Shown here piece after piece: positions 949 through 35,084 of a stretch of 35,084 nt of DNA. The DNA comes from Tubiluchus corallicola (taxonomy: Eukaryota > Priapulida > Priapulimorpha > Priapulimorphida > Tubiluchidae). The notes below the pieces were generated by a model that did not search any database, was not told the origin of the DNA, and saw nothing but the letters and a program-made list of their open reading frames with translations. The stretch spans positions 1 through 35,084 of the forward strand of contig JAQGDQ010001548.1 in the NCBI GenBank assembly GCA_030141605.1, written 5' to 3'. The first letter of the stretch is position 1. The number at the start of each line of letters is the position of its first letter. The position numbers were made by a program, and so were the translations under genes.

Positions 949-3900
949 CTGAAAATGAAGATCAAATTAAAGTTTGATAAAACAAGAAAAAATCAAGATA
1001 ACTTTAACGTACTAGCGATTCAATCCTATATACAATGACATGTTTAAGATACGTTACTAGCGACCACAATTCAATCCTCTATACAATGACATGTTTAAGA
1101 TGCGTTACTAGCAATCACAATTCAATCCTGTACACAATGATATGTTTAAAATACGTTACTAATGATCACAATTCAATCCTGTATACAATGATATGTTTAA
1201 GAGACGTTACTAGCAATCACAATTCAATCCTGTACACAATGATATGTTTAAAATACGATACTAGCGATCACAATTCAATCCTGTATACAATGATATGTTT
1301 AAGGTACGTTACTAGCGATCACAATTCAATCCTGCATACAATGATATGTTTAAGATACGTTACTAGCGATCACAATTCAATCCTGTATACAATGACATGT
1401 TTAAGATACGTTACTAGCGATCACAATTCAATCCTGCATACAATGATATGTTTAAGGTACGATACTAGCGATCACAATTCAATCCTGCATACAATGATAT
1501 GTTTAAGATACGATACTAGCAATCACAATTCAATCCTGTATACAATGATATGTTTAAAATACGTTACTAGCGATCACAATTCAATCCTGTATACAATGAC
1601 ATGTTTAAGATACGTTACTAGCGATCACAATTCAATCCTGTATACAATGATATGTTTAAAACACGTTACTAGCAATCACAATTCAATCCTGTACACAATG
1701 ATATGTTTAAGGTACGTTACTAGCAATCACAATTCAATCCTGTATACAATGATATGTTTAAAATACGTTACTAGCAATCACAATTCAATCCTGTACACAA
1801 TGATATGTTTAAGGTACGTTACTAGCAATCACAATTCAATCCTGTATACAATGACATGTTTAAGATACGTTACTAGCAATCACAATTCAATCCTGTACAC
1901 AATGACATGTTTAAAACACGTTACTAGCGATCACAATTCAATCCTGTACACAATGATATGTTTAAAATACGTTACTAGCAATCACAATTCAATCCTGTAC
2001 ACAATGATATGTTTAAAATACGTTACTAGCAATCACAATTCAATCCTGTATACAATGATATGTTTAAAATACGTTACTAGCAATCACAATTCAATCCTGT
2101 ACACAATGATATGTTTAAAATACGTTACTAGCAATCACAATTCAATCCTGTATACAATGACATGTTTAAACTACGTTACTAGCAATCAAAATTCAATCCT
2201 GTACATAATAATATGTTTAAAATACGTTACTAACAATCACAATTCAATCCTGTATACAATGACATGTTTAAGATACGTTACTAGCGATCACAATTCAATC
2301 CTGTATACAATGATATGTTTAAAACACGATACTAGCGACCACAATTCATGATATGTTTAAGATACGTTACTAGCGACCACAATTCAATCCTGTACACAAT
2401 GACATGTTTAAGATACGTTACTAGCGATCACAATTCAATCCTGTATACAATGTTATGTTTAAAACACGATACTAGCGACCACAATTCAGTCCTGCACACA
2501 ATGATATGTTTAAAACATTATACATTTCTATCTTAAGAACAGGAATAAAATGCAGGCAAGATTGCAACACAGAAAATTTCAGAAATACTGACGTTACAAA
2601 GGACTATAATAAGAGCAAATGATACCTTGTTTTATGTCCAACTCAATCATCGTGTTATAAAATGATGAAAGTATAACTGATTCTTCTTCCGGTACATGAG
2701 GCAATCGCTAAAATAAACGACGTGTGTGTAAAACAATAAAATTAATATAAAACTGAATCAAATTATCATATTTAATAAGCCTTTTCACAGTTCCAGCGAT
2801 TAATGATGATCGTGAAAAGGTCAAATGTTCAGTGTCCAGATAACACATTTGTATACACTTGACAATGCCTCACAGCCCAAACTATTATAACATTAACAGT
2901 TAACACCTAGTTAGAACTTTACCTAGTTCATTTTTTCTTGTTCCCAAGCAAGATCCTGCTAGTAAATCACACTACGCACAGACTAATGCATAATTATTTA
3001 AGCCCACGTAAAACAACGAAAGTTACTGAACTCACATGGCAGACGACTTTGCTTTACAAGTCACATGTCACGTGACAGTTATAGTTAAGACGCGTTGCTG
3101 TAGAAAACGTAACCGTAGAACTGTGCATGTGCACAACGAAACCGTGAAAAGGTTTATTATAGCAGACAATTATTTTAACTCTTTACCTCAAACGTTCCTA
3201 CTAAACAGCATCAGCTGAAAGGTATGTGAAGTCTATAATTGTGTGTTGAAGAGTTTGAGTAAAGCAAATGATAGACATAAGTGAACACTGTGGGACAACA
3301 CGGAAACACTAGTGTATTTTTTTATAATGAATGGTTTCATCCAGGTAAGTACAATAAGTCTGCGCTTAACGACTCCCGGCTTAGTGACGTTTCGTTTTAA
3401 CGACGCTTAATATTTGACGCTTGCTCCGCACTTAACGACGCACATTTCACTTTAATGATGATTTTTTTACTTTGCCTAAAGTCATTTTTTATTTGATCAA
3501 CCAAATTTCATCATATTTCAAGCATTAAAACGGTACATACTGCATTATTCGATTTTAAAAACGCACTCGTAGTGTAAAACATACAATTATTTATATGTTG
3601 TTGCTTTCAGATTGACTAACTGACTGTGAAATGCGAGTCGTTTGTTTAAGTCTCCCAGTTACGGCATGATTTTCAAGTGAATGGCAGTAACCGCCACCAC
3701 CTGGGAACTTCTATTCAGAGGTGATATATTTTATATTTATGCTTTATAAGCAGTTCTTTGCAAATTTGTTTGTTATATTTTTCGAAGTTTAAATGATAAC
3801 AGTAAAGTAACTCCAACATACTGAATGACTTGTCCTTTCCTTTAGCACACCACAAACAGTTTAAGTGATAACAATAAAAAAACCCAACATGCTGAGTAAC

Positions 3901-6900
3901 TCGTTCTTTCGTTTAGCACACCACAAACAGTTTACGTGATAACAATAAAACAAACCCAACATGCTGAGTGACTCGTTCTTTCCTTTAGCATACCACGAAC
4001 AGTTTACGTGATAACAGTAAAATAAACCCAACATGCAGAGTGACTCGTTCTTTCCTTTAGCACACCACAAACAGTTTAAGTGATAACAGTAAAATAAACC
4101 CACCATACTGAGTGACTTGTCCTTTCCTTTAGCACACCACAAACAGTTTAAGTGATAACAGTAAAATAAACCCACCATACTGAGTGACTTGTCCTTTCCT
4201 TTAGCACACCACAAACAGTTTAAGTGATAACAGTAAAGTAAACCCACCATACTGAGTGACTTGTCCTTTCCTTTAGCACACCACAAACAGTTTAAGTGAT
4301 AACAGTAAAATAAACCCACCATACTGAGTGACTTGTCCTTTCCTTTAGCACACCAAAACAGTTTAAGTTATAACAGTAAAATAAACACAATATACTGAAT
4401 GACTTGTTCTTTACTTTAATACGTAAAACTAACCTGTATCAACTCATTCAACACAACTGCATCATAACCAGACAAATACTGTACATAGTATCTTTGTAGC
4501 ACCTGATTGTATTTCTTTATCAAAGCTGGAAAATAAACATTGCCAATTAATGTAAAGATTTCATTAATAAAAAAATCTGCTACAATGTTTATTCACGCAA
4601 AAAAACAATCATTTTTTGGGAAAGAAAAATATAATGCAACCATTTTTGGGAATCCAATTTGTTGATGTAAATATTCTTAATTGTATTAATCATTTTGTCA
4701 GAATTCTGTGTTATATGAACACAAATGAAACTTGAACAACTAACCTCTTAGTTCCTCCATTCCAAACAATAATTCTGGAAGAGCTCTGAAGAAACAAAAT
4801 AACAAGTTAAACTTGTTTCTGACTTGTTCTTAACAATTATAGCAACAAAAAAAATCAAAATATTTATTTATAAAAAAAGAATAGAAAAAAGCAAGTAAAC
4901 ATGATCCTTGTAAATATTGAATAAAGTAAAGCATTATATTCTTAACTATCAAAATAAATGAAAAATAAACTCAGGCGTTGCCATAATTAACACTAAGCTA
5001 ATTAACAGTGAACTAATCCACGCAATAGCACTCTGTTTAGCAGACTTTTAAGATGGGTTATGTTGATCAAGAAGCAAAATTTGTGAACATTTGCTTTGTG
5101 AAACTTCCAACTGTGTACAAATTTGGTTAACCCTTTCATACCCGTTGTATCCCGTGGGATACGAGAATATTTTCTGCCTTTAAAATTAATAAAATTTTAA
5201 AACTGACAGTTATTTGATCTCTTAATAGTCATTTTGATTTAAGCCAATAACAATAGACTAAAAATGGTGATAAAATGGCAAACTAGAAAATCTACATAGC
5301 ATAAAAAACAAGGTACAGTACTTTAGAGACGACTTTGTACAGATCAGCATAGCATGCATACTAAATGTCTTAAATACTTTAAATAATTATCAGCAGTTGC
5401 AAAATGAAGCACATTTTATGCTTCCATTGAATCCCAATGTATCCCGTGGGATACAGGCTATATTTAGCACGTGGGCACAGGTAGAAAATAAAAATTATTA
5501 TGTGTAAACAAGATGGACATACTGAATAAAAGTACCAAGCCAAAAAATTTTTGCTTATTAAAAAAATAATTTGGGACTGAAAGGGTTAATACAGATCTGA
5601 ATGACACTTACTGTAGCGCTTAACAGTAGCTTTTCTGCAGAGAAACAAAACTGTCATGATTGCCTAGCAGCTAGTTCATATCTAAGTCGGTTTGTACAAG
5701 CAGGTCAAATACTGCAGTTGCGCTACGCCATCTACAATACCTTGACACCCACAGGTGCAGCAAGGTGGGGGCAACAAGGGCGAATCACCCCCGGACGCAA
5801 GGGTGAGAGGGAGCAAAAGTTTTCTAGAGCTCAAGAAACTGTTCTTTGTTAATTACTAATCCGAGTTTGTTAGTTAGTTAGTTTTAAACAGTGTTAATTT
5901 TCAAACTATGCTTCGTCAGAGATCATCGTAGCTAACCTAATTACTACATACAGTCTAGAAAAAAGACTAATGTTGTTACTCAACGGTGTGTGTAGGGTGA
6001 CCAGTGGCTTAGCAGATTGATAATTTTGGGAAAAACAGTGACGTTTCTCTAAATGCTGATTGTACTATTATGAAAACCTGTAGTGTTCTGTATCTTTCAT
6101 AATCTTTGCATGTTTTAATGCTGAAGCTGAATGTTTAACGACTGTCATGTTATGAGCAACTAACGTATAGAAAAGAGTTACTCTGCTGCAGTACCACAAA
6201 TCAAACTCAGGGTGATTCTTAGGAAAAATTCGCTGATCTTTATCCCATCATGCCGATAAAGGAAAGTGGGGTTCAGCATTAAATGTGTGGCTTTACGCAG
6301 AAAACAAATGATCAAAACATTAAAAGGGTAGGGGGCCAGCAGTTTTTTTGCCCCACCCCCCAGCACCACTAATAATTGCTACGCCACTGTTGAGACTATA
6401 GAATTTAATTTGCACAATTGATTACAGACGCCCCCGGTTTGATTACAGATGCCCCCGGTTTGATTACGGCAGCACTCATTTAGAGATAATACGAACACAC
6501 CTGTCAACAAATTCGTCAGGACTTCTGTTCTTCTGAGTACGAGGAATCACATGGTGTTGGTGACGCAGCACCCACTGCACCTCATCTCTCGCGAATGACA
6601 AAGCCATGAATACAAACAATGCCTGAAATATTGTATCACATTAAAGAGTAATAAACTAATGAATAATGTATTACTGATGGCAATGATGTTCTAACATAAG
6701 AAAACTGTATACAGCAAGAAAAAGTGTCAAAACTGTAATAAAAATTCTCTTGCTTATGGGAAAAAGAACAAAGCCACTGACAGAATGGCAAATGGCTGCA
6801 TGGAAAAGGAACCAGGAAAGAAATGGGTGCATGGAAAAGGAACCAGGAAAGAAATGGGTGCATGGAAAAGGAACCAGGAAAGAAATGGGTGCATGTGAAA

Positions 6901-9900
6901 GGAACCGGGAAAGAAATGGGTGCATGGAAAAGGAACCAGGGAAGGAATGGGTGCATGTGAAAGGAACCGGGAAAGAAATGGCTGCATGGAAAAGGAACCA
7001 GGAAAGAAATGGGTGCATGGAAAAGGAACCAGGAAAGAAATGGGTGCATGGAAAAGGAACCAGGAAAGAAATGGGTGCATGGAAAAGGAACCAGGAAAGA
7101 AATGGGTGCATGTGAAAGGAACTAGGAAAGAAATGGGTGCATGGAAAAGGAACTAGGAAAGAAATGGCTGCATGGAAAAGGAACCAGGAAAGAAATGGGT
7201 GCATGGAAAAGGAACCAGGAAAGAAATGGGTGCATGGAAAAGGAACCAGGAAAGAAATGGGTGCATGGAAAAGGAACCAGGAAAGAAATGGGTGCATGGA
7301 AAAGGAACCAGGAAAGAAATGGGTGCATGGAAAAGGAACTAGGAAAGAAATGGCTGCATGGAAAAGGAACCAGGAAAGAAATGGGTGCATGGAAAAGGAA
7401 CCAGGAAAGAAATGGGTGCATGGAAAAGGAACTAGGAAAGAAATGGGTGCATGGAAAAGGAACCAGGAAAGAAATGGGTGCATGGAAAAGAAACCAGGAA
7501 AGAAATGGGTGCATGGAAAAGGAACCAGGAAAGAAATGGGTGCATGGAAAAGGAACCAGGGAAGGAATGGGTGCACGGAAAAGGAACCAGGAAAGAAATG
7601 GGTGCATGGAAAAGGAACCAGGAAAGAAATGGGTGCATGGAAAAGGAACTAGGAAAGAAATGGGTGCATGGAAAAGGAACCAGGAAAGAAATGGGTGCAT
7701 GGAAAAGGAACCAGGAAAGAAATGGGTGCATGTGAAAGGAACCAGGAAAGAAATGGGTGCATGGAAAAGGAACTGGGAAAGAAATGGGTGCATGGAAAAG
7801 GAACCAGGAAAGAAATGGGTGAATGGAAAAGGAACCGGGAAAGAAATGGCTGCATGGAAAAGGAACCGGGAAAGAAATGGGTGCATGGAAAAGGAACCAG
7901 AAAAAAATGGGTGCATGGAAAAATCAAAAATATTAAAAGTTTCATTTTAAGGACTCTTTCTGACCGTGGGAACCCTGAGTAGCACACCGGGTACCACCAA
8001 CCCTAGTGACGCCCCCGACAATTAATGTAATTAAGATGATCTAAACTGATTAAAACTTGTGACAGAGCAAAACTAACGAGTCGATTTATTCATTCCCATG
8101 TTAAAAAAGCAAAAAACAGTTTTAATAATCTGCCTCCAGATACAAAAACATGTAGTTGACCAGAAAGGACAAAACAATTTAATTACACGAGTACAATCAC
8201 TTCTGTTAACTCTTTACTTCTGAGATGAAACTAATGATGAAACAAACAATAAACAAACTTTTGGTCCCAGCAATCCTGGCTGATCTGTCAAAATCATTGA
8301 CAGCTCCTTTAATGACGTCCGTAAGAATTTTCTGCGATCTCTGTGGGTATTTGCCCTGTATAATAAACACAAAAACAATTCACAAATATAGAGGATAGTA
8401 ATAAGTAATAACTCCATGTTTTTGTAAGTATATATGACGATGATGATGATGACAATGACGATGATGAGGAGGACAATGACGACGATGATGACGATCACAA
8501 TGACGACGACGATGATGATGAGGACAATGATGATGATGATGAAAATGATGATGACAACGATGGACGACGATGAGGACGATCACAATAACAACGACAATGA
8601 TGATGATGATGATAATGATGATGATGAAAATGACGATGATGAGGAGGACAATGACGACGACGATGATAACAATGACAAAGACGATGACAATAATGATACA
8701 GCAAACTATGTATAACTCAAAGACTTCCGGACCAATGTTTGTAAGAAAACTAGGTTGCTCATCTATGTGGAACAATACACTAGTAACACTACAGCCTGTG
8801 AAAATGTCTTACTGAGTCTTTAATCAAATATCAAATAGCAATTTTTATGAATAATCAAAAATAAAATGACTGATCCACCTCTATTGTAGTCTGAGTAGCA
8901 CGGTTAATAGAATTCGGCAGTAATAATATTGTGATCTATATTGTATAATGTTGTGATTTATATTGTGATAATATCGTAAACCGCATTTGTTAAGCCATAT
9001 GTCGTGTGCAGCGGTTTGTGGTGCACACTTTTGCTCGCAATTTCCCACACAGGAAGTTGTTCGAGATACGTGGAATAATTTCAGCCAGATTCTTAAGAAT
9101 GGTCCCGGAAATTCGGTTCAAGTTAAGCGATAATTCAAGCTACACGATGTTTGTTAAAGGGAAAAACGAAAGGAAAAATCCGTTCCAAGAGATCTGTTCA
9201 GAAATGCAAGAATTCAAGTTATAACAGCTATTTGCAGTTTACTTTAGTAATAAAGATAGTCTAGTTTACTTTAGTAATAAAGATAATCAAGAAAAACTTT
9301 AATTTTACTGCCCAGCTAAACAAGAAAAGTTTGAAGTGATACAATGTCTGTTTAATAGTGAGGATTTGATATCCAGTCAATTTTATGTAAAAAGTTTGTA
9401 ATATTTAGGACGAAGGCAACAAACATTAGCATGTTTAATTAGGTGAACAATGCTTGTGTACTTACGCACTCTGCTGTGCGGCTTGCAAACATTAGCATGT
9501 TTAATTAGGTGAACAATGCTTGTGTACTTACGCACTCTGCTGTGCGGCTTGCAAACATTAGCATGTTTAATTAGGTGAACAATGCTTGTGTACTTACGCA
9601 CTCTGCTGTGCGGCTTGCAAACATTAGCATGTTTAATTAGGTGAACAATGCTTGTGTACTTACGCACTCTGCTGTGCGGCTTGCAAACATTAGCATGTTT
9701 AATTAGGTGAACAATGCTTGTGTACTTATGCACTTTGCTGGGCGGCTTGCAAACATTAGCATGCTTAATTAGGTAAACAATGCTTGTGTACTTACGCACT
9801 CTGCTGTGCGGCCTGTAGACATTAGCATGTTTAATTAGGTGAACAATGCTTGTGTACTTACGCACTCTGCTGTGCGGCCTGCAAACATTAGCATGTTTAA

Positions 9901-12900
9901 TTAGGTGAACAATGCTTGTGTACTTACGCACTCTGCTGTGCGGCTTGCAAACTTTAGCATGTTTAATTAGATGAACAATGCTTGTGTACTTACGCACTCT
10001 GCTGTGCGGCTTGCAAACATTAGCATGTTTAATTAGGTGAACAATGCTTGTGTACTTAGCACTCTGCTGTGCGGCTTGAACATTAGCATGTTTAATTAGA
10101 TGAACAATGCTTGTGTACTTACGCACTCTGCTGTGCGGCTTGCAAACTTTAGCATGTTTAATTAGATGAACAATGCTTGTGTACTTATGCACTTTGCTGT
10201 GCGGCTTGCAAACATTAGCATGTTAATTAGTAACAATGCTTGTGTACTTACGCACTCTGCTGTGCGGCTGAACATTAGCATGTTTAATTAGTGAACAATG
10301 CTTGTGTACTTAGCACTTGCTGTGCGGCCTGCAAACATTAGCATGTTTAATTAGGTGAACAATGCTTGTGTACTTACGCACTCTGCTGTGCGGCTTGCAG
10401 ACATTCTCTCACTTCACTCACTCGTTTACCCATCCTGCAAGATAAAACACGTTTGTTTTCGGTGATGAGCCCTTTCATAGTTTCACAGCGATTGATGATG
10501 ATCGTGAAAAGGTCAAAGGTTAAGTGTACACTTGACAATGCCTCATAGCCCATGCTATTGTAATACTAACAGTTTTAACAGCTAGCTAGAACCTTACCTA
10601 GTTCATATTTCTCATTCTCAAGCAAGATCTTACTAGTAAATCACTCTGTGCACAGACTAATGCATAATTAAGTAAAGTCCACGTAAAACAACTGAAGTTA
10701 CTGATTTGATGTGGCAGAGGGCTTTGCTTTACCCACATATCACGCTGCGGCTGTAGTTAAGGCACATTGCTGTGGTGCACTTAACCTTTGACCTACAGTG
10801 CGCACAAAGAAACTGTGAAAAGGCTTCTCAATTCACAACGTATAAATGTACAATGTGGACGAGCTACGCTGGACTTATCTTCATACTAATTTCAAGTTTG
10901 AAATGAATAAGTTCAAAAAGTTTGTTAAGGAAATGTGTCCTGACATTTTACATATAATTAAATCAATACGTTTTACAATGTCTTCCTGCCAGTTTATACA
11001 TTTTAAATGTTGCAGTAATTAAACATTTTAGGTAAAATAACAGAAGGCCTTAAAATGAAAACTTTGTTTCCCAAAACAAAACTGTCTGTATGCAGCGTGT
11101 TGAAGCATTTGTGTTTGTGAATTGAAAATTTATAAACATTGGTTGACATCCTTCTGTCTCGGAAGACAATGGAGTGTGCGTCAAGAGAGTCATTGATCAC
11201 ATTGATGGAGCTGCAGCTCCTCCGCCTAGTGTCGAGATACAGTGTGGGCATCTCGCAAGCCTACAGCACCTGGTATTCCTAGGCGGTCACCCATCCAAGT
11301 ACTAACCAGGCTCTACGTTGCTTAACTTCGGTGATCAGACATTACAAACATTACACATGCTATAATTACTCACCCTTTCATGGACTCAAAAAACTGCAGA
11401 ACATACGGATGAGTGTGAATGACTTCATCTCTGAACAGTTGAGTAACTAAACTGCTACTCAACGCCTGGCACCACAGTTCCGATGCACCCGGTGCAGCAA
11501 GGTGCTGATTACAAAGCATAAATCCAACTAAATCAAAAAAGAAACGCAAAAATAAAACTTCCAGCTGCCCGTTTTTGAAAACTATGTTAACGAGCTTAAT
11601 TAATTAATTATTTCAATAAATAAACCGCTATACGTTTGTCAAGTTGCCACGTCCTAATTTAGAAATCAATGATTTCATGACGACGATAATACAGACGTTT
11701 AAAGGTGTTATAAAAACAAGTGCTGCTGCCACCTTTTGCTTGAAAAACAAAATAAAAAATTGCAAAGCTCGTGATAAGGTGGAAACAAAAGAGACTGGAG
11801 CGAGATTAACTCAGGTAAAGAACTGCATTGCTAAAGGTTTGAAATGACCACATGTATGTAACTGTATTAACTCAGGTAAAGAACTGCATTGCTAAAGGTT
11901 TGAAATAACCACATTTACATAACTGTATTAACTCAGGTAAAGAACTGCATTGCTAAAGGTTTGAAATGACCACATGTACATAACTGTATTAACTGGCATA
12001 TGTATTAACTGTCACACACTACTAAGCACATTTACACTAAAGTAACAACGACCACGAACAAAGTACACCAGGCCAACAACAGCAGATAAAAACACTATAT
12101 AACAAAACATGACATGGTGTGATTTGAAATGATATATATAAGATTATATAATTACATGAATATTTTACTAAAATGGACATCATATCTATATAAATTGTTG
12201 CTTGCATTATAGTCACATGCGTTACTTGTGTGATTATAATGCAACCAATGGTGCAGGTGTTAGAGTGCATAAAAGGGAAGGTAAAAATGATGGAATGATA
12301 GTGGAGCGCGCAGGAGATGGGAATTAATAGGATTAGGTTAGTGAAACGATGAGAACGAGAATGAATATGAGATTGCTATTAAGACATTGCAAATATATAT
12401 AAACATTTATAAACAGAAGTACACTATGGGTAAGTCTGTCGCACACCGTGGGCCGGTCTGTCGCACACCGTGGGCCGGTCTGTCGCACACCGTGAACGTG
12501 AAGAAGTACACTATGAGTCAGTCTGTCGCACACCGTGAACGTGAAGAAGTGTACTAACGGTCAGTCTGTCGCACACGGTGAACGTGAAGAAGTACACTAT
12601 GAGTCAGTCTATCACACACGGTGAACATGAAGAAGTACACTATGAGTCAGTCTGTCGCACACCGTGAACGTGAAGAAGTGTACTAACGGTCAGTCTGTCG
12701 CACACGGTGAACGTGAAGAAGTACACTATGGGCCAGTCTGTCGCACACGGTGAACGTGAAGAAGTGTACTATGGGCCAGTCTGTCGCACACGGTGAACGT
12801 GAAGAAGTACACTATGGGCCAGTCTGTCGCACACCGTGAACGTGAAGAAGTGTACTAACGGTCAGTCTGTCGCACACGGTGAACATGAAGAAGTACACTA

Positions 12901-24900: not shown

Positions 24901-26377
24901 TAGCCACCCATGATTTTCCTACTTAAATTGTGTAATTACAATTTCTTATTTAAAATATAATTATCTTGATAAGATAATAACAATGGATATTTTAACAATG
25001 GATTATCAATGAGACGAATCTTTATTATCAATTCAATTCAAGTAGTATTTATTAACTTAGCACAATTCAATTATCATATCAGCATAAGGTTGCCACAGAT
25101 GTCCTGATTTTTCTAGAATTGTCAAGTGTGCCACTTTTTCTAATCTGTCCCAGATTTTAGTGATAGCTTTCCCGGAGCTTCAGAAACATAAAAACAATGT
25201 AATACATGAAGAAAACATGTGCTCAGGTTTCCCGGAGCTTCAGAAACATAAAACAATGTAATACATGAAGAAAACATGTGCTCAGGTTTCCCGGAGCTTC
25301 AGAAACATAAAACAATGTAATACATGAAGAAAACATGTGCTCAGGTTGTTTAGCATTGATGCCACGGTCAAGTAGCTTGACCTACAGTTTTCATGACTCA
25401 TTGGTCAGTTACATTTTAAGCTGCTTCACAGTTGACCAGTGCAAACAATATTAATTTATCATCATCGGTCGGCTTCTGTCTTATTTTCATGCACAGCATT
25501 TATTTTAATGCTGCTATGAACTTAAAAGAAATATAAAAAACAAAAATCATGTATACCTGCCTAATTAAACCTTTTAAATCTAATTAACACCTGATTTAAC
25601 ATTTATGCTGTTGGATTCTGTGTTACAAGGAGGAAATCTTAGGTCTGCTCTGTCATGCTGGGCTGGTAGCTTAGGTGTTAGAGTGTGGGAGTACTATTTC
25701 CAGGTCTAGGGTTCAAATCCCAACTAGTCTACAATTTTTCAGTCTCATTTCTCCAACTCATTACAAACAATAGATATAATTGGTAAAATAAACCACAAAT
25801 AGTTTATAAAGATTCTGGCAATCGCAGTTATAGTTAATTACTAAGTAAACTTTGTTGAGTAAAATAATATCTGAAGATTTGTTGGACTCAAAATTATGAT
25901 ACTAAAGTAAAGATTGCTTCAATTAGCATGTAGATCATGACAAACATCATTAATCCAGTAAAAAACTATTGTATACTACCACTAGTTATATCAATGCTAA
26001 TGATCTTAGTTTACAGTATGGTTTCTGCTCGACAGTAGCAACAAAACCAAGTGAAAATGCACTCCTCCCACTAAGAAAGCTTACGAAAAGATTCAATCAC
26101 CCAATTTCCCTCTTCCTCCCTAACTAACTTGTGCCTAATTTTTGAATATGGCATCAAACAGCCCAATAAATTGGTACGAGAGTATGGTAAATAAAAATTG
26201 GTTAACCGTGTGTACTTACTTTTCAGAATGCATAGTGAAAAAATAAACGTGCAGGCATTCAACGGTTATTACCTTTTTAATATTGTAGATTCTAGTAAGC
26301 ATCCCTATTCCCCTGTCGTTCAAAATTGTCAGTTTCTCAGCCAGTTTCTGCTGGCTAACATTTACAGACCTCGCCAT
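890..26377 (-). CDS. NCKAP1: NCKAP1 / Nap1 / HEM (WAVE complex subunit), exons 1-15, 3' part outside the window
   Basis: Fifteen exons, 1,491 nt or 497 codons, were assembled by eye from splice signals and by comparison with remembered human NCKAP1 and fly Hem. Each junction keeps phase and rebuilds conserved family sequence, for example [25 protein letters not shown] and [19 protein letters not shown]. The family protein is about 1,130 residues, so this is roughly the first 44%; the last exon here ends at [13 protein letters not shown]1 pairs with CYFIP/Sra1 and scaffolds the WAVE-Abi-HSPC300 module that links Rac to Arp2/3 actin branching at the plasma membrane. Invertebrates usually have one gene, so this is the common orthologue of NCKAP1 and NCKAP1L. 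No frameshift or internal stop was seen. Introns are 219 to about 3,180 bp and carry nearly all the minisatellites in the window. Confidence 0.96.
1009..2516. repeat. 51-bp minisatellite, about 29 copies (NCKAP1 intron 14)
   Basis: The unit contains ATGTTTAAGATACGTTACTA and CACAATTCAATCCTG. Copies differ by scattered substitutions, and one truncated unit lies at 2341-2355. The unit is 17 codons long and stop-free in one frame, which makes a 438-residue open frame that I regard as spurious. The array fills most of the 1,677-bp intron and ends about 60 bp from the exon 15 acceptor. Confidence 0.97.
2626..2707 (-). CDS. NCKAP1: NCKAP1 exon 14
   Basis: The acceptor is TTATTTTAG|CGA and the donor CAAG|GTATCA, giving 82 nt that end in phase 1. 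The peptide includes [19 protein letters not shown], aligning with PEDESIIMSSFVNTM of the human protein. Confidence 0.94.
2780..3152 (+). mobile_element. Unclassified TIR element, copy 1
   Basis: It begins CCTTTTCACAGTT and ends ACCGTGAAAAGG, giving imperfect terminal inverted repeats about 373 bp apart. Copies lie at 10470-10823 (same orientation) and 23290-23557 (opposite, one end lost), sharing internal blocks such as CAGACTAATGCATAATTA. I could not settle the target duplication, so I give no superfamily. A short open frame at 3036-3218 lies within it and is not considered a gene. Confidence 0.75.
3353..3452. repeat. Fragment resembling a pogo/Tigger terminus
   Basis: Repeated GCGCTTAACGAC, TTTTAACGACGCTTAA and GCACTTAACGACGC half-motifs resemble the sub-terminal repeats of Tigger-like MITEs. 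No matching second end was found, so it is a fragment or a diverged copy. Confidence 0.4.
3792..4420. repeat. 72-bp minisatellite, about 9 copies (NCKAP1 intron 13)
   Basis: Copies of TGATAACAGTAAAATAAACC occur at 72-bp spacing (3794, 3866, 3937, 4009, 4081, 4153, 4225, 4297, about 4368). The unit is 24 codons, giving a stop-free minus-strand frame of 153 residues that I regard as spurious. A degenerate first unit starts about 15 nt after the exon 13 donor but does not include it. Confidence 0.96.
4434..4525 (-). CDS. NCKAP1: NCKAP1 exon 13
   Basis: The acceptor is TTTCCAG|CT and the donor CAG|GTTAGT, giving 92 nt that end in phase 0. The peptide [20 protein letters not shown] continues to [10 protein letters not shown], a family signature. 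The 72-bp array begins about 15 nt into the following intron. Confidence 0.97.
4745..4785 (-). CDS. NCKAP1: NCKAP1 exon 12 (41-nt small exon)
   Basis: The acceptor is TTCTTCAG|A and the donor AAGAG|GTTAGT. The 41 nt give (R)[13 protein letters not shown] plus one base, matching the fly and human ELLF/ELIF-MEELRA segment. It is too short to stand out as an open frame; phase and homology on both sides support it. Confidence 0.93.
5131..5585. mobile_element. piggyBac-like MITE
   Basis: The termini CCCTTTCATACCC and GGACTGAAAGGG are flanked by TTAA on each side (5127-5130 and 5586-5589), the piggyBac target duplication. It is 455 bp and non-coding. Two copies of the near-palindrome GTATCCCGTGGGATAC lie inside, at 5147-5162 and 5439-5454. 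Confidence 0.75.
5586..6001. other. NCKAP1 intron 11 remainder; nothing identified
   Basis: Non-coding. A short open frame at 5601-5852 has no recognisable content; a GC-richer patch at 5755-5815 may be an old repeat. No other structure seen. Confidence 0.5.
6002..6389. mobile_element. Possible hAT-like MITE
   Basis: The ends CAGTGGCTTAGCA and (complement) CAGTGGCGTAGCA form short inverted repeats of a type common in hAT elements. The flanking 8-mers do not match, so the call is tentative. Confidence 0.45.
6430..6470. repeat. Two-copy short tandem repeat
   Basis: Two neighbouring copies of a unit containing GCCCCCGGTTTGATTAC lie about 20 bp from the exon 11 donor side of the intron. Confidence 0.7.
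6501..6622 (-). CDS. NCKAP1: NCKAP1 exon 11
   Basis: The acceptor is ATTTCAG|GCA and the donor GACAG|GTGTGT, giving 122 nt that end in phase 2. The peptide [20 protein letters not shown] matches [20 protein letters not shown]; the following [18 protein letters not shown] is variable in the family. Confidence 0.95.
6790..7921. repeat. 31-bp minisatellite, about 36 copies (NCKAP1 intron 10)
   Basis: The purine-rich unit contains GGAAAAGGAACCAGGAAAG followed by AAATGGGTGCAT. Because 31 is not a multiple of 3 and the unit has no stop on either strand, long frames are open in all six phases. The apparent proteins of up to 301 residues are therefore a by-product. Variants (GTGAAA, CTAGG, GGCTGC) are distributed non-randomly along the array. 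Confidence 0.98.
8259..8355 (-). CDS. NCKAP1: NCKAP1 exon 10
   Basis: The acceptor is ATTATACAG|G and the donor AAAA|GTTTGT (a weak match to consensus), giving 97 nt. The peptide [20 protein letters not shown] continues to [12 protein letters not shown], nearly identical to fly and human in its second half. Confidence 0.96.
8431..8700. repeat. GAT/GAC-rich low-complexity tract (NCKAP1 intron 9)
   Basis: Imperfect (GATGAY)n with AATGACGAC interruptions runs for about 270 bp, starting about 75 bp upstream of the exon 10 acceptor. The Asp- and Met-rich or Ile- and Val-rich translations are artefacts. Confidence 0.95.
8701..9417. other. NCKAP1 intron 9, unique part
   Basis: Non-coding. Contains a short duplicated stretch TTTACTTTAGTAATAAAGAT at 9237-9286. 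No gene or known element recognised. Confidence 0.55.
9418..10405 (-). repeat. 66-bp array built from the exon 9 end plus its splice donor, 15 donor copies
   Basis: The unit has 28 nt identical except for one base to the 3' end of NCKAP1 exon 9 (GCCGCACAGCAGAGTGC at its end) and then 38 nt of intron starting GTAAGTACACAAGC. The copy nearest the exon is the real donor (10377/10378). Of the other 14, ten keep GTAAGT and four (near 9728, 10057, 10187, 10312) have lost the G at +1. Another frame is open for 269 residues because the unit is 22 codons; in the exon frame each donor is followed by TAA. Confidence 0.95.
10378..10434 (-). CDS. NCKAP1: NCKAP1 exon 9 (57 nt; source of the intron 9 array)
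   Basis: The acceptor is ATCTTGCAG|G and the donor AGTGC|GTAAGT, giving 57 nt. Joined with exons 8 and 10 it reads [20 protein letters not shown], aligning with the human [20 protein letters not shown]. The last 28 nt of this exon, with the donor, are copied through the 66-bp array that follows it. In the exon frame, reading through the donor gives TAA at once (GCG TAA), so only splicing at this donor, or upstream of it, avoids truncation. On the other side, an unclassified repeat ends 35 bp upstream of the acceptor. Confidence 0.92.
10470..10823 (+). mobile_element. Unclassified TIR element, copy 2
   Basis: Starts CCCTTTCATAGTTTCACAG and ends AACTGTGAAAAGG, with internal blocks shared with 2780-3152. 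It sits 35 bp upstream of the exon 9 acceptor in gene orientation, so the branch point of intron 8 may lie inside it. Confidence 0.7.
11145..11340 (-). mobile_element. 5S-rRNA-derived SINE, internally deleted copy
   Basis: On the minus strand, 11339-11259 carries about 81 nt of 5S rRNA sequence, including GATCACCGAAGTTAAGCAAC, TTAGTACTTGGATGGGTGAC and GGTGCTGTAGGC; the 5' part of the 5S is missing. It is followed by a body (ATGCCCACACTGTAT, CGACACTAGGCGGAGGAGCT, CCATTGTCTTCCGAGACAG) shared with 32670-33073. Compared with that copy about 265 bp is missing between two GCAGCTCC-like motifs. It starts 35 bp after the exon 8 donor. Confidence 0.8.
11259..11339 (-). rRNA. Partial 5S rRNA-like sequence (SINE head, not a functional gene)
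   Basis: The 3' two thirds of a 5S gene are readable, including the box C region GGATGGGTGACCGCCT with one later substitution (CTAGGAATA). The first 40 or so bases are absent and no T-run terminator follows, so it is a retrotransposon head or pseudogene. Confidence 0.75.
11374..11527 (-). CDS. NCKAP1: NCKAP1 exon 8
   Basis: The acceptor is GATTTAG|TT and the donor AAAGG|GTGAGT, giving 154 nt. The peptide (F)[18 protein letters not shown] continues to [20 protein letters not shown]. This segment is more divergent than its neighbours, but LFRDEV and the FGF start are family-typical and the phases fit on both sides. Confidence 0.93.
11807..11990. repeat. 61-bp tandem repeat, 3 copies (NCKAP1 intron 7)
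   Basis: Three copies, spaced 61 bp, contain ACTCAGGTAAAGAACTGCAT and CTAAAGGTTTGAAAT. The motif CAG|GTAAAG looks like a splice donor but on the plus strand, opposite to the gene. Confidence 0.92.
12420..13447. repeat. 43-bp minisatellite with higher-order structure, about 24 copies (NCKAP1 intron 7)
   Basis: Units contain CAGTCTGTCGCACAC and GTGAACGTGAAGAAGT. Types ending TACACTATGGGCC, TGTACTAACGGTC and TGTACTATGGGCC recur in a patterned order. The array abuts a tRNA-like SINE head at 13449-13525 whose flank contains the same CACGTTCACGGTGTGCGACA, so the array may have grown from the SINE body. Confidence 0.95.
13449..13525 (-). mobile_element. tRNA-derived SINE head
   Basis: On the minus strand, TAGTCTAGTGG fits the pol III A box and GAGTTCGAACC the B box, about 30 bp apart. 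The 5' and 3' ends do not form a 7-bp acceptor stem and no CCA-adjacent stem is seen, so it is a tRNA-like SINE head or tRNA pseudogene rather than a tRNA gene. It lies about 95 bp after the exon 7 donor. Confidence 0.65.
13618..13804 (-). CDS. NCKAP1: NCKAP1 exon 7
   Basis: The acceptor is TTTTTAG|CTT and the donor CGTAT|GTAAGT, giving 187 nt that end in phase 1. The peptide includes [19 protein letters not shown] and [17 protein letters not shown]. The donor is chosen over GTATGT four bases upstream because the phase-1 T joins TT of exon 8 to restore the conserved Phe. Confidence 0.95.
13941..13974 (-). other. Hammerhead-ribozyme-like motif (possible Penelope-like element remnant)
   Basis: The minus strand reads CTGATGA, then CTCC-GAGA-GGA as a small hairpin, then CGAAAA. 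This is the order of conserved hammerhead core boxes (CUGANGA, stem II, GAAA) seen in Penelope-like element termini. Helix II has an imperfect base (A opposite C with a bulged C), and I could not find the helix III partner and cleavage triplet. Confidence 0.35.
14067..14173. repeat. Inverted repeat with 35-bp arms
   Basis: TACAATGTCAGTAAAAT at 14067 onward and its complement ending at 14173 form 35-bp arms with two mismatches and a 37-bp loop (14102-14138). It could be a hairpin or a small fold-back element. Confidence 0.8.
14270..15565. repeat. 38-bp minisatellite, about 34 copies (NCKAP1 intron 6)
   Basis: The AT-rich unit contains ATCGTAAATTATCGATTAGT and GTATAGTCTCTTTTTTG. Variants include TTTTTGG for TTTTTTG, ATGGTCTC and TATAGATT. 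A run of variant units near 14671 recurs near 15203, 532 bp (14 units) later, showing a block duplication inside the array. Confidence 0.97.
15566..16118. other. NCKAP1 intron 6 remainder; possible LINE 3' end
   Basis: The stretch ends AATAAATTCATAATTCATAA with a short repeated tail at 15992-16015, which resembles the 3' end of a non-LTR retrotransposon. No readable reverse transcriptase fragment was found. Confidence 0.3.
16119..16209 (-). CDS. NCKAP1: NCKAP1 exon 6
   Basis: The acceptor is TTTGCAG|T and the donor AAG|GTAAGT, giving 91 nt. The first base completes a Ser codon split from exon 5. The peptide [20 protein letters not shown] continues to [11 protein letters not shown], matching the family segment PRLGQMIVDYENPLKK. 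Confidence 0.95.
16510..16519. repeat. C homopolymer, about 10 bp
   Basis: A run of ten C lies in intron 5. No other feature is attached to it. Confidence 0.9.
16807..17246. mobile_element. pogo/Tigger-type MITE
   Basis: The ends CAGTATTCCCTCGC and (complement) CAGTGCTCCCTCAG are flanked by TA (805-806 and 17247-17248 in window numbering 16805-16806). Sub-terminal repeats TTCGCGGTTCA and TTATCGCGG occur at both ends. The terminus is very like widely distributed Tigger-type non-autonomous elements of animals. It has no transposase. Confidence 0.82.
17393..17982. mobile_element. MITE, CCGTATATAC family, diverged copy C
   Basis: The termini CCGTATATACC and GAGTATATACGG are flanked by TA (17391-17392 and 17983-17984). 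Sub-terminal motifs are GTACAAGTCGACC instead of the GCATATAAGCCGACC of copies A and B, so it is a separate subfamily. Its right end is 10 nt from the exon 5 donor. An open frame at 17436-17705 is internal to the element. Confidence 0.78.
17995..18137 (-). CDS. NCKAP1: NCKAP1 exon 5
   Basis: The acceptor is TGCTTTTCAG|ACG and the donor AACAG|GTGGGT, giving 143 nt that end in phase 2. The peptide includes [19 protein letters not shown] and [20 protein letters not shown]. Only 10 nt of intron separate the donor from the TA target duplication of a MITE at 17393-17982. Confidence 0.96.
18276..18379. repeat. 24-bp tandem repeat, about 4.5 copies
   Basis: The unit is AATGTAGCCACGAGTAGGCC followed by TATA, with one A-to-G variant. 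It lies in NCKAP1 intron 4. Confidence 0.93.
18412..18893. mobile_element. hAT (Charlie-like) MITE
   Basis: The ends CGGGGGTGTGCAAATT and AATTTGCACACCCCTG are inverted repeats of the hAT CAGGGGTGTGCAAA type. Internal GGGCCGCA and GGCCACA motifs are also common in such elements. The flanking 8-mers agree only partly, so the duplication has decayed. The open frame at 18691-18894 is internal. Confidence 0.65.
19116..19172 (-). CDS. NCKAP1: NCKAP1 exon 4
   Basis: The acceptor is TTTGCATAG|GAT and the donor ATT|GTGAGT, giving 19 codons in phase 0/0. The peptide [19 protein letters not shown] matches the human DHVCELLNTIDVCQVFFDI segment. Confidence 0.94.
19382..19955 (+). repeat. Dispersed repeat, copy shared with 32353-33198
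   Basis: Collinear blocks shared with 32353-33198 include AGTTTCACGCTGCT/TAGCTTCACGCTGCT, TAGTGCTGAAAAC, TTATTGTCTACTGC and the end block ATAATGC...GTGGCC. The right copy is split by a SINE. Class unknown. Confidence 0.65.
20022..20423. mobile_element. hAT MITE with perfect 8-bp target duplication
   Basis: The termini TAGGGGTGAGCAT and ATGCTCACCCCTA are perfect inverted repeats, flanked by ACTGTAGG on both sides (20014-20021 and 20424-20431). The 402-bp interior is full of ATTCGAATTCGA-type motifs on both strands. The 8-bp duplication and GGGG terminus place it in the hAT superfamily. Confidence 0.88.
20716..20808 (-). CDS. NCKAP1: NCKAP1 exon 3
   Basis: The acceptor is TTTCTACAG|AGC and the donor AAG|GTACTG, giving 31 codons in phase 0/0. 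The stretch [20 protein letters not shown] is one of the best conserved segments of the family. Confidence 0.95.
21243..21265. repeat. (CAGT)n microsatellite
   Basis: About five to six perfect CAGT units lie in NCKAP1 intron 2. Confidence 0.9.
21428..21847. mobile_element. pogo-type MITE
   Basis: The ends CAGTCAACCCTCGTTAAACC and (complement) CAGTCGACCCTCGTTAAACC are flanked by TA (21426-21427, 21848-21849). Nested TTATCCGATAT motifs occur near both ends. The 91-residue open frame at 21602-21877 is inside it and shows no transposase motif. Confidence 0.85.
22330..22480 (+). repeat. Dispersed repeat, inverted partner of 30690-30830
   Basis: GCCAATGTCAGTC, GCAGAAATAAAGATCAGTGG and AATGCCTCTCAGAGACAC recur in complement at 30690-30830. 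A short frame ends here at 22475, but the partner copy does not keep it, so coding is not supported. Confidence 0.65.
22671..23098 (-). mobile_element. MITE, CCGTATATACTCGC family, copy B
   Basis: Perfect terminal repeats with TA on both sides (22669-22670, 23099-23100). The sequence is the reverse complement of copy A at 287-736 with small indels (428 versus 450 bp), suggesting recent mobility. Confidence 0.86.
23290..23557 (-). mobile_element. Unclassified TIR element, copy 3 (truncated)
   Basis: Starts CCTTTTCACAGTTTTG and runs through TTATGCATTAGTCTGTG to CATGGGCTGCGAGG, the complement order of copies 1 and 2. The far terminus is missing. Confidence 0.65.
23560..23992. other. NCKAP1 intron 2, possible LINE 3' remnant
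   Basis: ATGTAATAATAATAAACTAAAAAAA at 23858 onward (quoted in part: AATAATAATAAACTAA) resembles a non-LTR 3' tail. Nothing else recognised. Confidence 0.25.
23993..24103 (-). CDS. NCKAP1: NCKAP1 exon 2
   Basis: The acceptor is ATTTCAG|GCC and the donor ATT|GTAAGT, giving 37 codons in phase 0/0. The peptide starts [20 protein letters not shown] and includes [12 protein letters not shown], aligning with ACGDPKAKP and KFIVRKFP of the vertebrate protein. Confidence 0.95.
25168..25346. repeat. 60-bp tandem repeat, 3 copies
   Basis: The units start TTTCCCGGAGCTTCAGAAAC and end GAAAACATGTGCTCAGG at 25168, 25228 and 25287. Copies differ by one A in an A-run only, so it is young. Confidence 0.95.
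25660..25732 (+). mobile_element. tRNA-like SINE head
   Basis: TAGCTTAGGTG fits the A box and GGTTCAAATCC the B box, 30-35 bp apart. The acceptor stem does not close, so it is a SINE head or tRNA pseudogene rather than a tRNA gene. Confidence 0.6.
26273..26377 (-). CDS. NCKAP1: NCKAP1 exon 1 (start codon)
   Basis: The 35 codons run from ATG at 26377-26375 to an AAG|GTAATA donor. The peptide begins [16 protein letters not shown] and ends [10 protein letters not shown], matching the family N-terminus almost residue for residue. The start is chosen because human and fly proteins begin at the same place (MSRS/MARP). The exon ends in phase 0. A pyrimidine-rich AG (TTCTCAG) lies 25 nt upstream of the ATG, so the 5' UTR may itself be spliced with acceptor near 26402; that part is inference. 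Confidence 0.95.
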
Positions 26378-32352: not shown

Positions 32353-33198
32353 ACGTAATTAACAATGATCATGGCTAAGCAACTTCAGAACAGGCTTGAC
32401 CTATTCAAACTCATTAGCTTCACGCTGCTAGGAAATCGGGATAATCATTTGGATAGATTCGCGCTAGGAAAGTGCCGCTAAGCTGCCAAAACGCGTTAAA
32501 TGGCCATGGATGCTCAAGCAAATTAACGGTGGAAGAATACACAAGTGAAAATTTTTTGACTATTAGGCAAGAACTTGAAATACTTAATTGTAGTGCTGAA
32601 AACGAGCAGAGGAGTTGATTACTAACAAGAACATATTCTGCGTTATTGTCTACTGCGTACCTCTCTCTCATGCCCACACTGTATTTCGACACTAGGCGGA
32701 GGAGCTGCACAAGCAGCCAACGGCTAGAGGGCAGAGAAGGTCAAGTGACCCAACGGCCATATGTAGCGGAGTAAACCTTCGAAATCAGGAGTGGAGCCCC
32801 GAAGGCGGACCAGTGCAGCATGCTCACTGACTCCGGCAGCTCCTGCAGCCAACCTGGTGCCAAACGTATCGGAGGAAGAGAGGGGGTTCCTGTTGTCTGG
32901 GCAACTCAGGATCTCCATACACCTTGCCCAGGCGTGCGCCCTGGAGACTTTCAAGGATCACACTGCTCAGCCACAGTCTACGCTGCAGCTCCATCAATAT
33001 GATCAATAGCTGACTCTCTTGACACACACTCCATTGTCTTCCGAGACAGAAGGAGGCCAACAACAACAACAACCTCTCTTATTCCCAGTACAGAATGCAA
33101 TAGGTCAGCAGTATCATCAACCACTGCAAGAGTTACATAGCGGTGAATGAATGACACTTTTGTCACCAATTAATTGTTTAGTGGCCTGTTTCACCGCG
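32353..33198 (+). repeat. Dispersed repeat split by a SINE
   Basis: The outer parts 32353-32668 and about 33074-33198 align in order with 19382-19955. The middle is an inserted SINE. Several short open frames here follow from the SINE. Confidence 0.6.
32670..33073 (+). mobile_element. 5S-family SINE body with (AAC)n tail
   Basis: Body blocks ATGCCCACACTGTAT, CGACACTAGGCGGAGGAGCT and CCATTGTCTTCCGAGACAG are shared with the 5S-headed copy at 11145-11340, and the tail is CAACAACAACAACAAC. The 5S head is missing (5' truncation). Short CTCTCT direct repeats flank it, and the site is uninterrupted in the copy at 19382-19955. Confidence 0.7.
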
Positions 33199-33280
33199 GG
33201 CAGTTTTCGTATGAAGTCCATATTATGCTAAAAGTTGTTTTAAAGGGCTTTGATTTAAAAAAAGATCTTTTTTATTTCAG

Positions 33281-33835
33281 CAGGATGCCAGGTACGGGAA
33301 GTAAGAGCCATTCTCGTCAACATTCCAGGAGTGCCAGTCCATTCCGTTCGAAACGCGACAAGCCTCACAAGAAAGAACGCCGAGAGAAAGAGAAGTACAA
33401 AAAGGCGAAGAGAAAGAAGCATAAGACGTCCAAACCCAGCAAGCCTCTTGTCGAGTACGACGACGTGAGTTCCAATTCTTCGTTCTACTCACACGAGAGT
33501 AAGTCGCCGTCGCCGACCGTCAGTCGAGTATCTTCAAAGAAACGTTCGCGCGCCGTGTCGCCCGCTACGGAAATACTGGCCTATAAGCAGAAGCAGCTGG
33601 AACGGGAACACAGTTCAAGGACGAGCTCTCCAGTTCGTAATGCGAAGCCGACCTCCATGAAACCCATGTATGACACTGCGCCAGTATCGTCAGCACAGAA
33701 GAAGGGGATAGAGCCGCCTAAAGCTTATCGAACAAATTCTCCTACCAGATACGTTCCTCCTCCAATGAAACGTAGATATTCTCCACCAGATGACGCATCT
33801 AGGTCCAAGTCTCGTAGAGATGGAAGCCCAGAAAG
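33281..33835 (+). CDS. N-terminal coding exon of a CDK12/CDK13-like RS-domain kinase (partial)
   Basis: The exon follows TTTTATTTCAG at 33280; the ATG at 33285 opens 183 codons plus two bases up to an AAAG|GTATGC donor at 33835. The peptide is rich in Arg, Ser and Lys, with an SR stretch (SRQHSRSASPFRSKR, residues 6-20), a basic KEKYKKAKRKKHK segment and KPLVEYDDVSS at about residue 52. That last motif follows a basic stretch in human CDK12 and CDK13, the cyclin K-dependent kinases that phosphorylate the RNA polymerase II tail. SP and RS dipeptides continue to the end. The kinase domain would be in later exons outside the window. The AG is doubled (CAGCAG), giving a 3-nt choice inside the 5' UTR only. 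It could be another SR-rich nuclear protein if the motif match is chance. Confidence 0.7.
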
Positions 33836-35084
33836 GTATGCTCAAGTTGTTTTTAGGTTTACATCCGTATTACACGTATTTTTCAACAAGCTGAATGTTA
33901 TAACTAGCAGTTAATTGATTTATGATGGCCCTTTTGAAAGAATGGGTTATTCAGAGCCGGTTTTAAGCCCGTTAGACAGGTTTGTTCAAATTGAGCCCCG
34001 CACTCGAGCTGAGGATCTTCTTCTTCTTCTCAGCTTTTCCCCTATGCGGGGTCGCCGTTGTGAATGAGTCTTCTTCACGCATTCCTGTTGTTGACCATCT
34101 CTTCATTTATGTCTTCCCTTCCCACAAGATCTTCACCGACTCTTCTTTTCGGGTGTCCATACCATCGCAATCTTGCGAGGCTCTTCCACTACTTTTACTG
34201 TTCCTTAGATATTATTATTTCTAATTTTATCTCTTCTTGTTATTCCCACCATCCATCTCAACATCCTCATCTCCACCACACCCATTTTCTTCTCTTCGGT
34301 CTTCTTTAGAGAAGCTGCTTCCAGCCCATAGATTAGAGCGGGTCTGACCACTATCTTTGTGGACTTTACCTGACTCATTGACTCACTGACTCATTCATAG
34401 AAGGTTTTGGAGCAGTTTTTACAGGCGGATGCCCTTCCTGACCCTAACCCTCCCTATTTATCCGGGCTTGGGGTCGGCACTGAGCTGGGCTGGCTTCCCC
34501 CCCCTCACCCAGTGGCTAGATTGCACTCAAGCTGAGGATGCTATGATAAGTGTGATCATTTATCTGTTTTGTAATTTCTGTTTACCTGTTTTACGAAAGG
34601 TAATTGGCGAACCCTGTTATTAGTTAGATTGTCATTGGGTTTTAATTTTGCCAATTTGTGGATGACATTCAAACCCTCAGTGCAGATTAAAATGACCTAC
34701 GGTCAACAATTTCTCAAGAGAGACTGGATAATTTGGTGATGCTATCTGTAGAAAACGGCATTGCAAAAAACCATAGACTGTGAAATGATTTTGAAAGATT
34801 TCTCGCATAAAAAAGCCAGAAAAGTCTGTTTCTGTTTTTAGAAGAAAGGCACATACACAAACAATTTGTCAATAATTATATTTATGTGTAATTAAATATT
34901 AAAACGTTCATATTGGCTTTCAATTTTTAGACTACAATTGAGGCTATTCATGGAGCTGGCTTACTACGTGAAGCATAACATATCAGTCTGCAGCTTTTGT
35001 CGGATAAATGGCCCTATTAACCATTTTTTAATTGGGCCCCCACACTTATTACACTGGCCTTGGGTTATTTAAATCATTCATGCG
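33836..35084. other. Following intron of the CDK12/13-like gene
   Basis: It holds a truncated LINE (34017-34522). I see no further exon with conserved content. Confidence 0.6.
34017..34522 (-). mobile_element. 5'-truncated, rearranged non-LTR retrotransposon (LINE) with 17-bp target duplication
   Basis: The minus strand encodes VVRPALIYGLEAASLKKTEE, then EMRMLRWMVGITRRDKIRN, and in another frame LRWYGH, the order of the C-terminal part of many LINE ORF2 proteins (RTE-like). Stops and a frameshift break it. The 3' end is GAAAAGCTGAGAAGAAGAAG. Direct repeats GCACTCGAGCTGAGGAT (34000-34016) and GCACTCAAGCTGAGGAT (34523-34539) flank it. At the 5' side is GGAAGGGCATCCG, a sequence I associate with LINE 3' UTRs, so the copy looks rearranged. 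Confidence 0.75.

Follow-up and report, generated by a model that had tools for sequence, protein, structure and literature searches.

A probable mirage-type minisatellite that repeats the exon 9/intron 9 border of an NCKAP1 gene

How can a gene tolerate an intron in which copies of its own 5' splice site follow one another in a row? The question is raised by an NCKAP1 gene on the minus strand of a 35,084-base contig (the window), in which the end of exon 9 passes directly into a 66-bp minisatellite. A sequence-only reading of the window had claimed that this minisatellite multiplied the 5' splice site of the gene itself and that the real donor, at 10378/10377, is followed by 14 copies, ten of them intact. 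Both claims were confirmed. Tandem Repeats Finder (TRF) detects a 66-bp array at 9420..10405 on the minus strand (15.1 copies including the exon end, 94% matches), and cutting the array at the donor yields 14 intronic copies (9428..10339, minus strand), with the exon end as copy 0. We consider it highly probable that this is a mirage-type minisatellite, in which a single duplication of the exon 9/intron 9 border was amplified into the intron and whose downstream donors are mostly silent, with no function shown.

The first 15 coding exons of NCKAP1 could be placed on the minus strand of the window, and all gene and array coordinates below refer to that strand; "exon 9" denotes the ninth coding exon that could be placed. 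(Several exon ends upstream of exon 7 were set by eye and were used only for the list of neighboring arrays.) The joined fragment matches the Pfam family Nckap1 with an E value of 9e-205, and the solved structure of Nck-associated protein 1 (3p8c_B, residues 2-494) aligns to it with an E value of 2.6e-193. Exon 9 (10434..10378) is 57 nucleotides (nt) long and is flanked by introns of 939 and 2022 nt, which separate it from exon 8 (11527..11374, placed by protein alignment) and from exon 10 (8355..8259, 97 nt), to which it is spliced. Exons 9 and 10 join in frame, with no gap near the junction in the 3p8c_B alignment. Checked against this protein evidence, the earlier placement of the end of exon 9 at 10378 appears well supported. 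The true donor is TGC|GTAAGT (10377..10372, with +1 at 10377). The last 28 nt of the exon (10405-10378) constitute copy 0 of the array. The first 29 nt (10434..10406) are unrepeated and are 79% purine, compared with 57% in the repeated part. A GTGAGT hexamer (CGA|GTGAGT) lies within the unrepeated part and might serve as a cryptic donor ahead of the true site.

The repeat unit consists of 28 exon-like nt and 38 intron-like nt. The sequence-only reading had given the exon-like part as the last 28 nt of exon 9 with one mismatch and had counted GTAAGT in addition to the 38 nt, within which it lies. GTAAGT is kept in copies 2, 4, 6, 7, 8, 9, and 11-14 (+1 at 10251, 10122, 9993, 9927, 9861, 9795, 9663, 9597, 9531, and 9465). 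It is lost in the other 4 of the 14 intronic copies (+1 at 10313, 10188, 10059, and 9729): copies 3 and 10 carry a G>A change at +1, and in copies 1 and 5 the G is missing. The spacing between donors was thought to be a uniform 66 nt; the first five intervals are 64, 62, 63, 66, and 63 nt, followed by nine of 66 nt. Around the donor, the 21-mer CGCACAGCAGAGTGCGTAAGT has 11 exact occurrences, in copy 0 and ten further copies, and two inexact ones, with 2 and 3 mismatches; it occurred in none of 100 shuffles. As claimed, the exon-side context is the same in all ten intact copies over the last 15 nt, but not farther out, where intact copies 2, 4, 7, 8, and 9 depart from the consensus. Among the ten, all except copy 9 have a T where the exon has a C, and copies 11-14 are identical over the aligned stretch. 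A search of the 343.5-Mb assembly (2344 contigs) with the array and exon 9 returned one match. An open frame of 279 codons runs through the array (9383-10222, minus strand) in a frame other than that of the exon; it stays open because the 66-bp unit is a whole number of codons (22), none of which is a stop in that frame.

Which of these donors could serve the gene? The reading frame runs into intron 9 as GC|G TAA, so use of any downstream donor would retain an in-frame TAA. In silico, an in-frame stop follows for 14 of 14 alternative donors. Only the first donor, therefore, can yield full-length protein, which agrees with the earlier claim that the gene needs no other. Donor strength was rejected as the feature that distinguishes the true site: each of the 11 intact donors has a computed U1 pairing of -7.1 kcal/mol (-1.6 to -11.7 kcal/mol at eight other NCKAP1 donors). 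RNA structure was likewise rejected. The segments CGCAC and GTGCG can pair as a hairpin at every intact donor, and the predicted chance that positions +1 to +6 are unpaired is alike throughout, at 0.02-0.06 for the 11 intact donors and 0.00-0.11 for the eight others (exons 7, 8, and 10-15). By computed pairing, the intact donors are the equal sites for U1 that had been proposed. With pairing equal and predicted accessibility alike, position should decide donor choice.

A published experiment bears on this point. When two identical CAG/guaagu donors were placed 52 nt apart in constructs with 365-nt introns, the upstream one was used exclusively (Carranza et al., PMC9225289). Upstream preference appears with near-equal donors under exon definition (PMC9225289). 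Given introns of 939 and 2022 nt around an exon of 57 nt, exon definition and use of the first donor would be expected in NCKAP1. The purine-rich, unrepeated part of exon 9 may also contain an enhancer, a candidate only, which would likewise favor the first donor. The earlier description of the locus as a natural test of donor choice is a fair one, but the rule had already been tested directly with two donors (PMC9225289). The array is a natural counterpart of that experiment, in which eleven donors lie behind one acceptor, share a core, and are computed to pair equally well with U1, and in which only the first leads to full-length protein. Junction counts at this array would show how strict exon definition is.

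Tandem repeats of exon-intron borders have precedents, contrary to the novelty implied by the sequence-only reading. In amphioxus they are called "mirages" and occur in Adh3 (units of 10-72 bp) and in the globin genes BflGb6 and BflGb9 (PMC3087553); PGBD5 and troponin C are further amphioxus cases (PMC3902484). The BflGb6 mirage has units of 150-160 bp (6 of them in one haplotype, 3 in another), and the BflGb9 mirage repeats the 3' border of an exon in a 157-bp unit (PMC3087553). Length instability has been reported, with somatic instability at Adh3, and reverse transcription-PCR suggests that regular splicing is not disturbed (PMC3087553). The NCKAP1 array resembles these minisatellite-like border repeats, many of whose copies carry splice signals (PMC3087553, PMC3902484), and resembles BflGb9 in that a 3' exon border is duplicated (PMC3087553). 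It differs in its gene, in its 14 additional copies, 10 of which keep an intact donor, and in being known here from the sequence of one assembly, whereas normal splicing and length and somatic instability were reported for amphioxus. It is a minisatellite tandem array, its unit spans a real exon-intron border, and the splice signal is present in some copies, three of the features of mirage-type arrays. The array is a further case, in another gene, of a type already published and opens no new category. Mirage-type arrays now include a conserved cell-skeleton gene, and if the host is not a lancelet, they would extend beyond the cephalochordate cases described in PMC3087553 and PMC3902484.

Human genes provide additional comparisons. 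In intron 18 of ABCA7, a polymorphic variable number tandem repeat (VNTR) of 12-427 units of 25 bp begins directly at the exon 18 donor GT (PMC5954066). Exon 19 skipping rises with VNTR length, and retention of one unit, at 2 +/- 1%, is not length dependent (PMC5954066). As in NCKAP1, that array adjoins an exon and holds its donor, and retention of a unit leads to a premature stop (14 of 14 donors in silico for NCKAP1); in contrast, the ABCA7 unit copies no exon sequence, whereas the NCKAP1 unit takes in the last 28 nt of its exon. The minisatellite of IFI6 (G1P3, 6-16) carries multiple donors, and two downstream units are reported to be used, giving three mRNA species (PMC4526556). In NCKAP1, by contrast, use of the repeat donors would, in silico, bring the reading frame to an immediate stop. 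In human duplicated genes, internal tandem repeats located at exon-intron borders can change splicing and give rise to introns (PMC2812944). Those repeats lie in recent paralogs of segmental duplications (PMC2812944), in contrast to the single match of the NCKAP1 array in its assembly.

How might such an array arise? The globin paper termed the mechanism that generates mirages unclear (PMC3087553). In NCKAP1, the founding step may have been mispairing or recombination between AATGTCTG in the exon (10405-10398) and AATGTTTG in the intron, 66 nt apart, which would have produced a tandem duplication. The proposed intron partner would correspond to the partial copy at the far border of the array (9420..9427). 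At the left border, exon and array part company upstream of AATGTCTG; at the right border, AATGTTTG ends the array and is followed by TTGCC instead of CAAGCC. This origin would account for the single mismatch between exon and array (TCTG in the exon, TTTG in most copies), because the duplication junction takes the intron's version. The 8-nt imperfect direct repeat is thus a suggested origin for a mirage-type unit. The array would then have grown in multi-unit steps, through unequal exchange, conversion, or slippage. Variant pairs recur in order (10166/10148 with 9971/9953, and 10194/10188 with 9735/9729), which suggests block-wise growth. The array may have been tolerated because the exon-side copy remains intact: under exon definition, the exon 9 acceptor would be paired with the donor closest to it, and that donor is the real one. 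Any RNA made by low-level use of downstream donors would carry a premature stop and should then decay, as stop-containing RNA tends to do.

The variation among copies bears both on the history of the array and on the reliability of its assembly. Relative to the consensus, the array has 17 substitutions, 12 deletions, and 0 insertions; an 18th entry in the substitution listing, at 9419, falls one base outside the array. All 12 deletions are of single bases and cluster within 260 nt (10059..10318), compared with 4 deletions and 4 insertions in the 5794 nt of the seven other arrays of the window together. This deletion-only cluster looks like uncorrected long-read consensus error. The deletions that kill the donors of copies 1 and 5 fall inside it, so if it is an error, the number of copies with an intact donor rises from 10 to 12. 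Distinct substitutions, merged by eye, number 6 in the 28 exon-like nt and 4 in the other 38 nt, so there is no general constraint on the exon-like part.

Several points weigh against the reading of the array as a mostly silent mirage. Use of the first donor is deduced from sequence and published rules, and those rules have another side: about 60% of all human alternative-donor events prefer the downstream donor (PMC9225289). In short introns the downstream donor is also preferred, in line with the cited work of Reed and Maniatis on the donor nearer the 3' splice site (PMC9225289). Should intron definition predominate in the host, the last copy would be the favored donor. Because VNTR length alters skipping of the next exon in ABCA7 (PMC5954066), "no effect" is not a safe conclusion for NCKAP1. 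The proposed founding repeat is weak evidence, since its motif, AATGTYTG, is not rare and is found 5 times elsewhere on the minus strand of the window. Finally, 5 of the 6 distinct exon-like substitutions are synonymous in the exon frame (P of 0.002-0.011, depending on weighting), among them a CAA>CAG change that is synonymous by the standard code; the sample is small, the events were merged by eye, and the comparison was made post hoc. A purely intronic array leaves this excess unexplained, and exchange with the coding exon could account for it; the persistence of donor-dead copies in the array argues against a strict filter.

An extension of that exchange would bring the coding end of exon 9 into the array as an active member. 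Sequence would then pass in both directions between exon and copies, leaving mostly synonymous changes in the copies, donor-dead copies would threaten the exon through conversion or contraction, and array length would set the share of RNA diverted to stop-containing forms; we regard this as unlikely. Slightly less plausible still is a copy-number-dependent control of splicing, in which downstream donors capture U1 and are partly used, so that longer arrays give more stop-containing RNA and less NCKAP1. Ten intact, equal donors that each bring a stop would suit such a control, as would the ABCA7 precedent, in which expression falls and next-exon skipping rises with VNTR length (PMC5954066); skipping of the 97-nt exon 10 would shift the frame. 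Yet one-unit retention in ABCA7 is independent of length (PMC5954066), equal donors under exon definition lead to use of the upstream one only (PMC9225289), mirages are said to leave splicing undisturbed (PMC3087553, PMC3902484), and this analysis gave no sign of regulation.

The array might instead act as a U1 reservoir, with the extra donors holding U1 on the intron and thereby aiding the true donor or guarding against premature polyadenylation. There are 11 GTAAGT motifs in less than 1 kb here, and elsewhere in the window the gene strand has 9; against a reservoir, 4 of the 14 copies are dead in this assembly, and no sequence feature requires one. This reading is very improbable. The sequence-only reading had raised both the reservoir and the splicing control, and nothing found here bears either out. 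That the array itself or its copy number is an artifact of assembly is very improbable, despite the skewed deletions described above and the misassembly of the published BflGb6 array in its draft genome (PMC3087553). Substitutions both shared among copies and private to single ones are not expected from simple collapse or stutter, and the exons on both sides are intact, although the exact copy number is uncertain.

Is the array unusual for its genome? As background, arrays with a period of at least 15 and at least 5 copies were sampled at 17 loci of the same assembly (169,685 bases). They cover 7.8% of the sampled bases (8 of the 17 loci have none, and one reaches 47%) and 19.5% of the window. 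Minisatellites being common in the sampled loci, the idea of the NCKAP1 array as an isolated oddity was rejected, and in an array-rich genome one array that overlaps an exon border is not surprising. In a donor scan limited to GTAAGT, GTGAGT, and GTATGT, one sampled array, an 18-bp unit at positions 6096-6189 of locus L006, carried GTAAGT or GTATGT in half or more of its copies. Within the window, arrays lie no more than 400 nt from a border of 9 of the 14 other placed exons. A 72-bp minisatellite of 8.8 copies (3786-4418) starts 15 nt behind the exon 13 donor, which it excludes; the interval between exons 14 and 15 holds a 51-bp array (1018-2515); and a degenerate CAT/ATG trinucleotide array (8434-8697) in intron 9 ends 78 nt upstream of exon 10. 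Border arrays that leave the edge exon intact may be the sort that survives.

The window contains several other features. A 5S rRNA-like sequence (11258-11367, minus strand; Rfam, 45.3 bits) lies a few nt behind the exon 8 donor and is perhaps a 5S-derived mobile element; translated stretches similar to this 5S-like region occur near 32420-33078. In NCKAP1 intron 1, a tRNA-Ser-like gene (25660-25732) was found by ARAGORN (anticodon act) and by the Rfam tRNA model (38.5 bits) and could be a tRNA-derived repeat. An open frame of 246 codons on the plus strand (33174-33914), rich in Ser, Arg, and Lys, is possibly part of another gene in the orientation opposite to that of NCKAP1.

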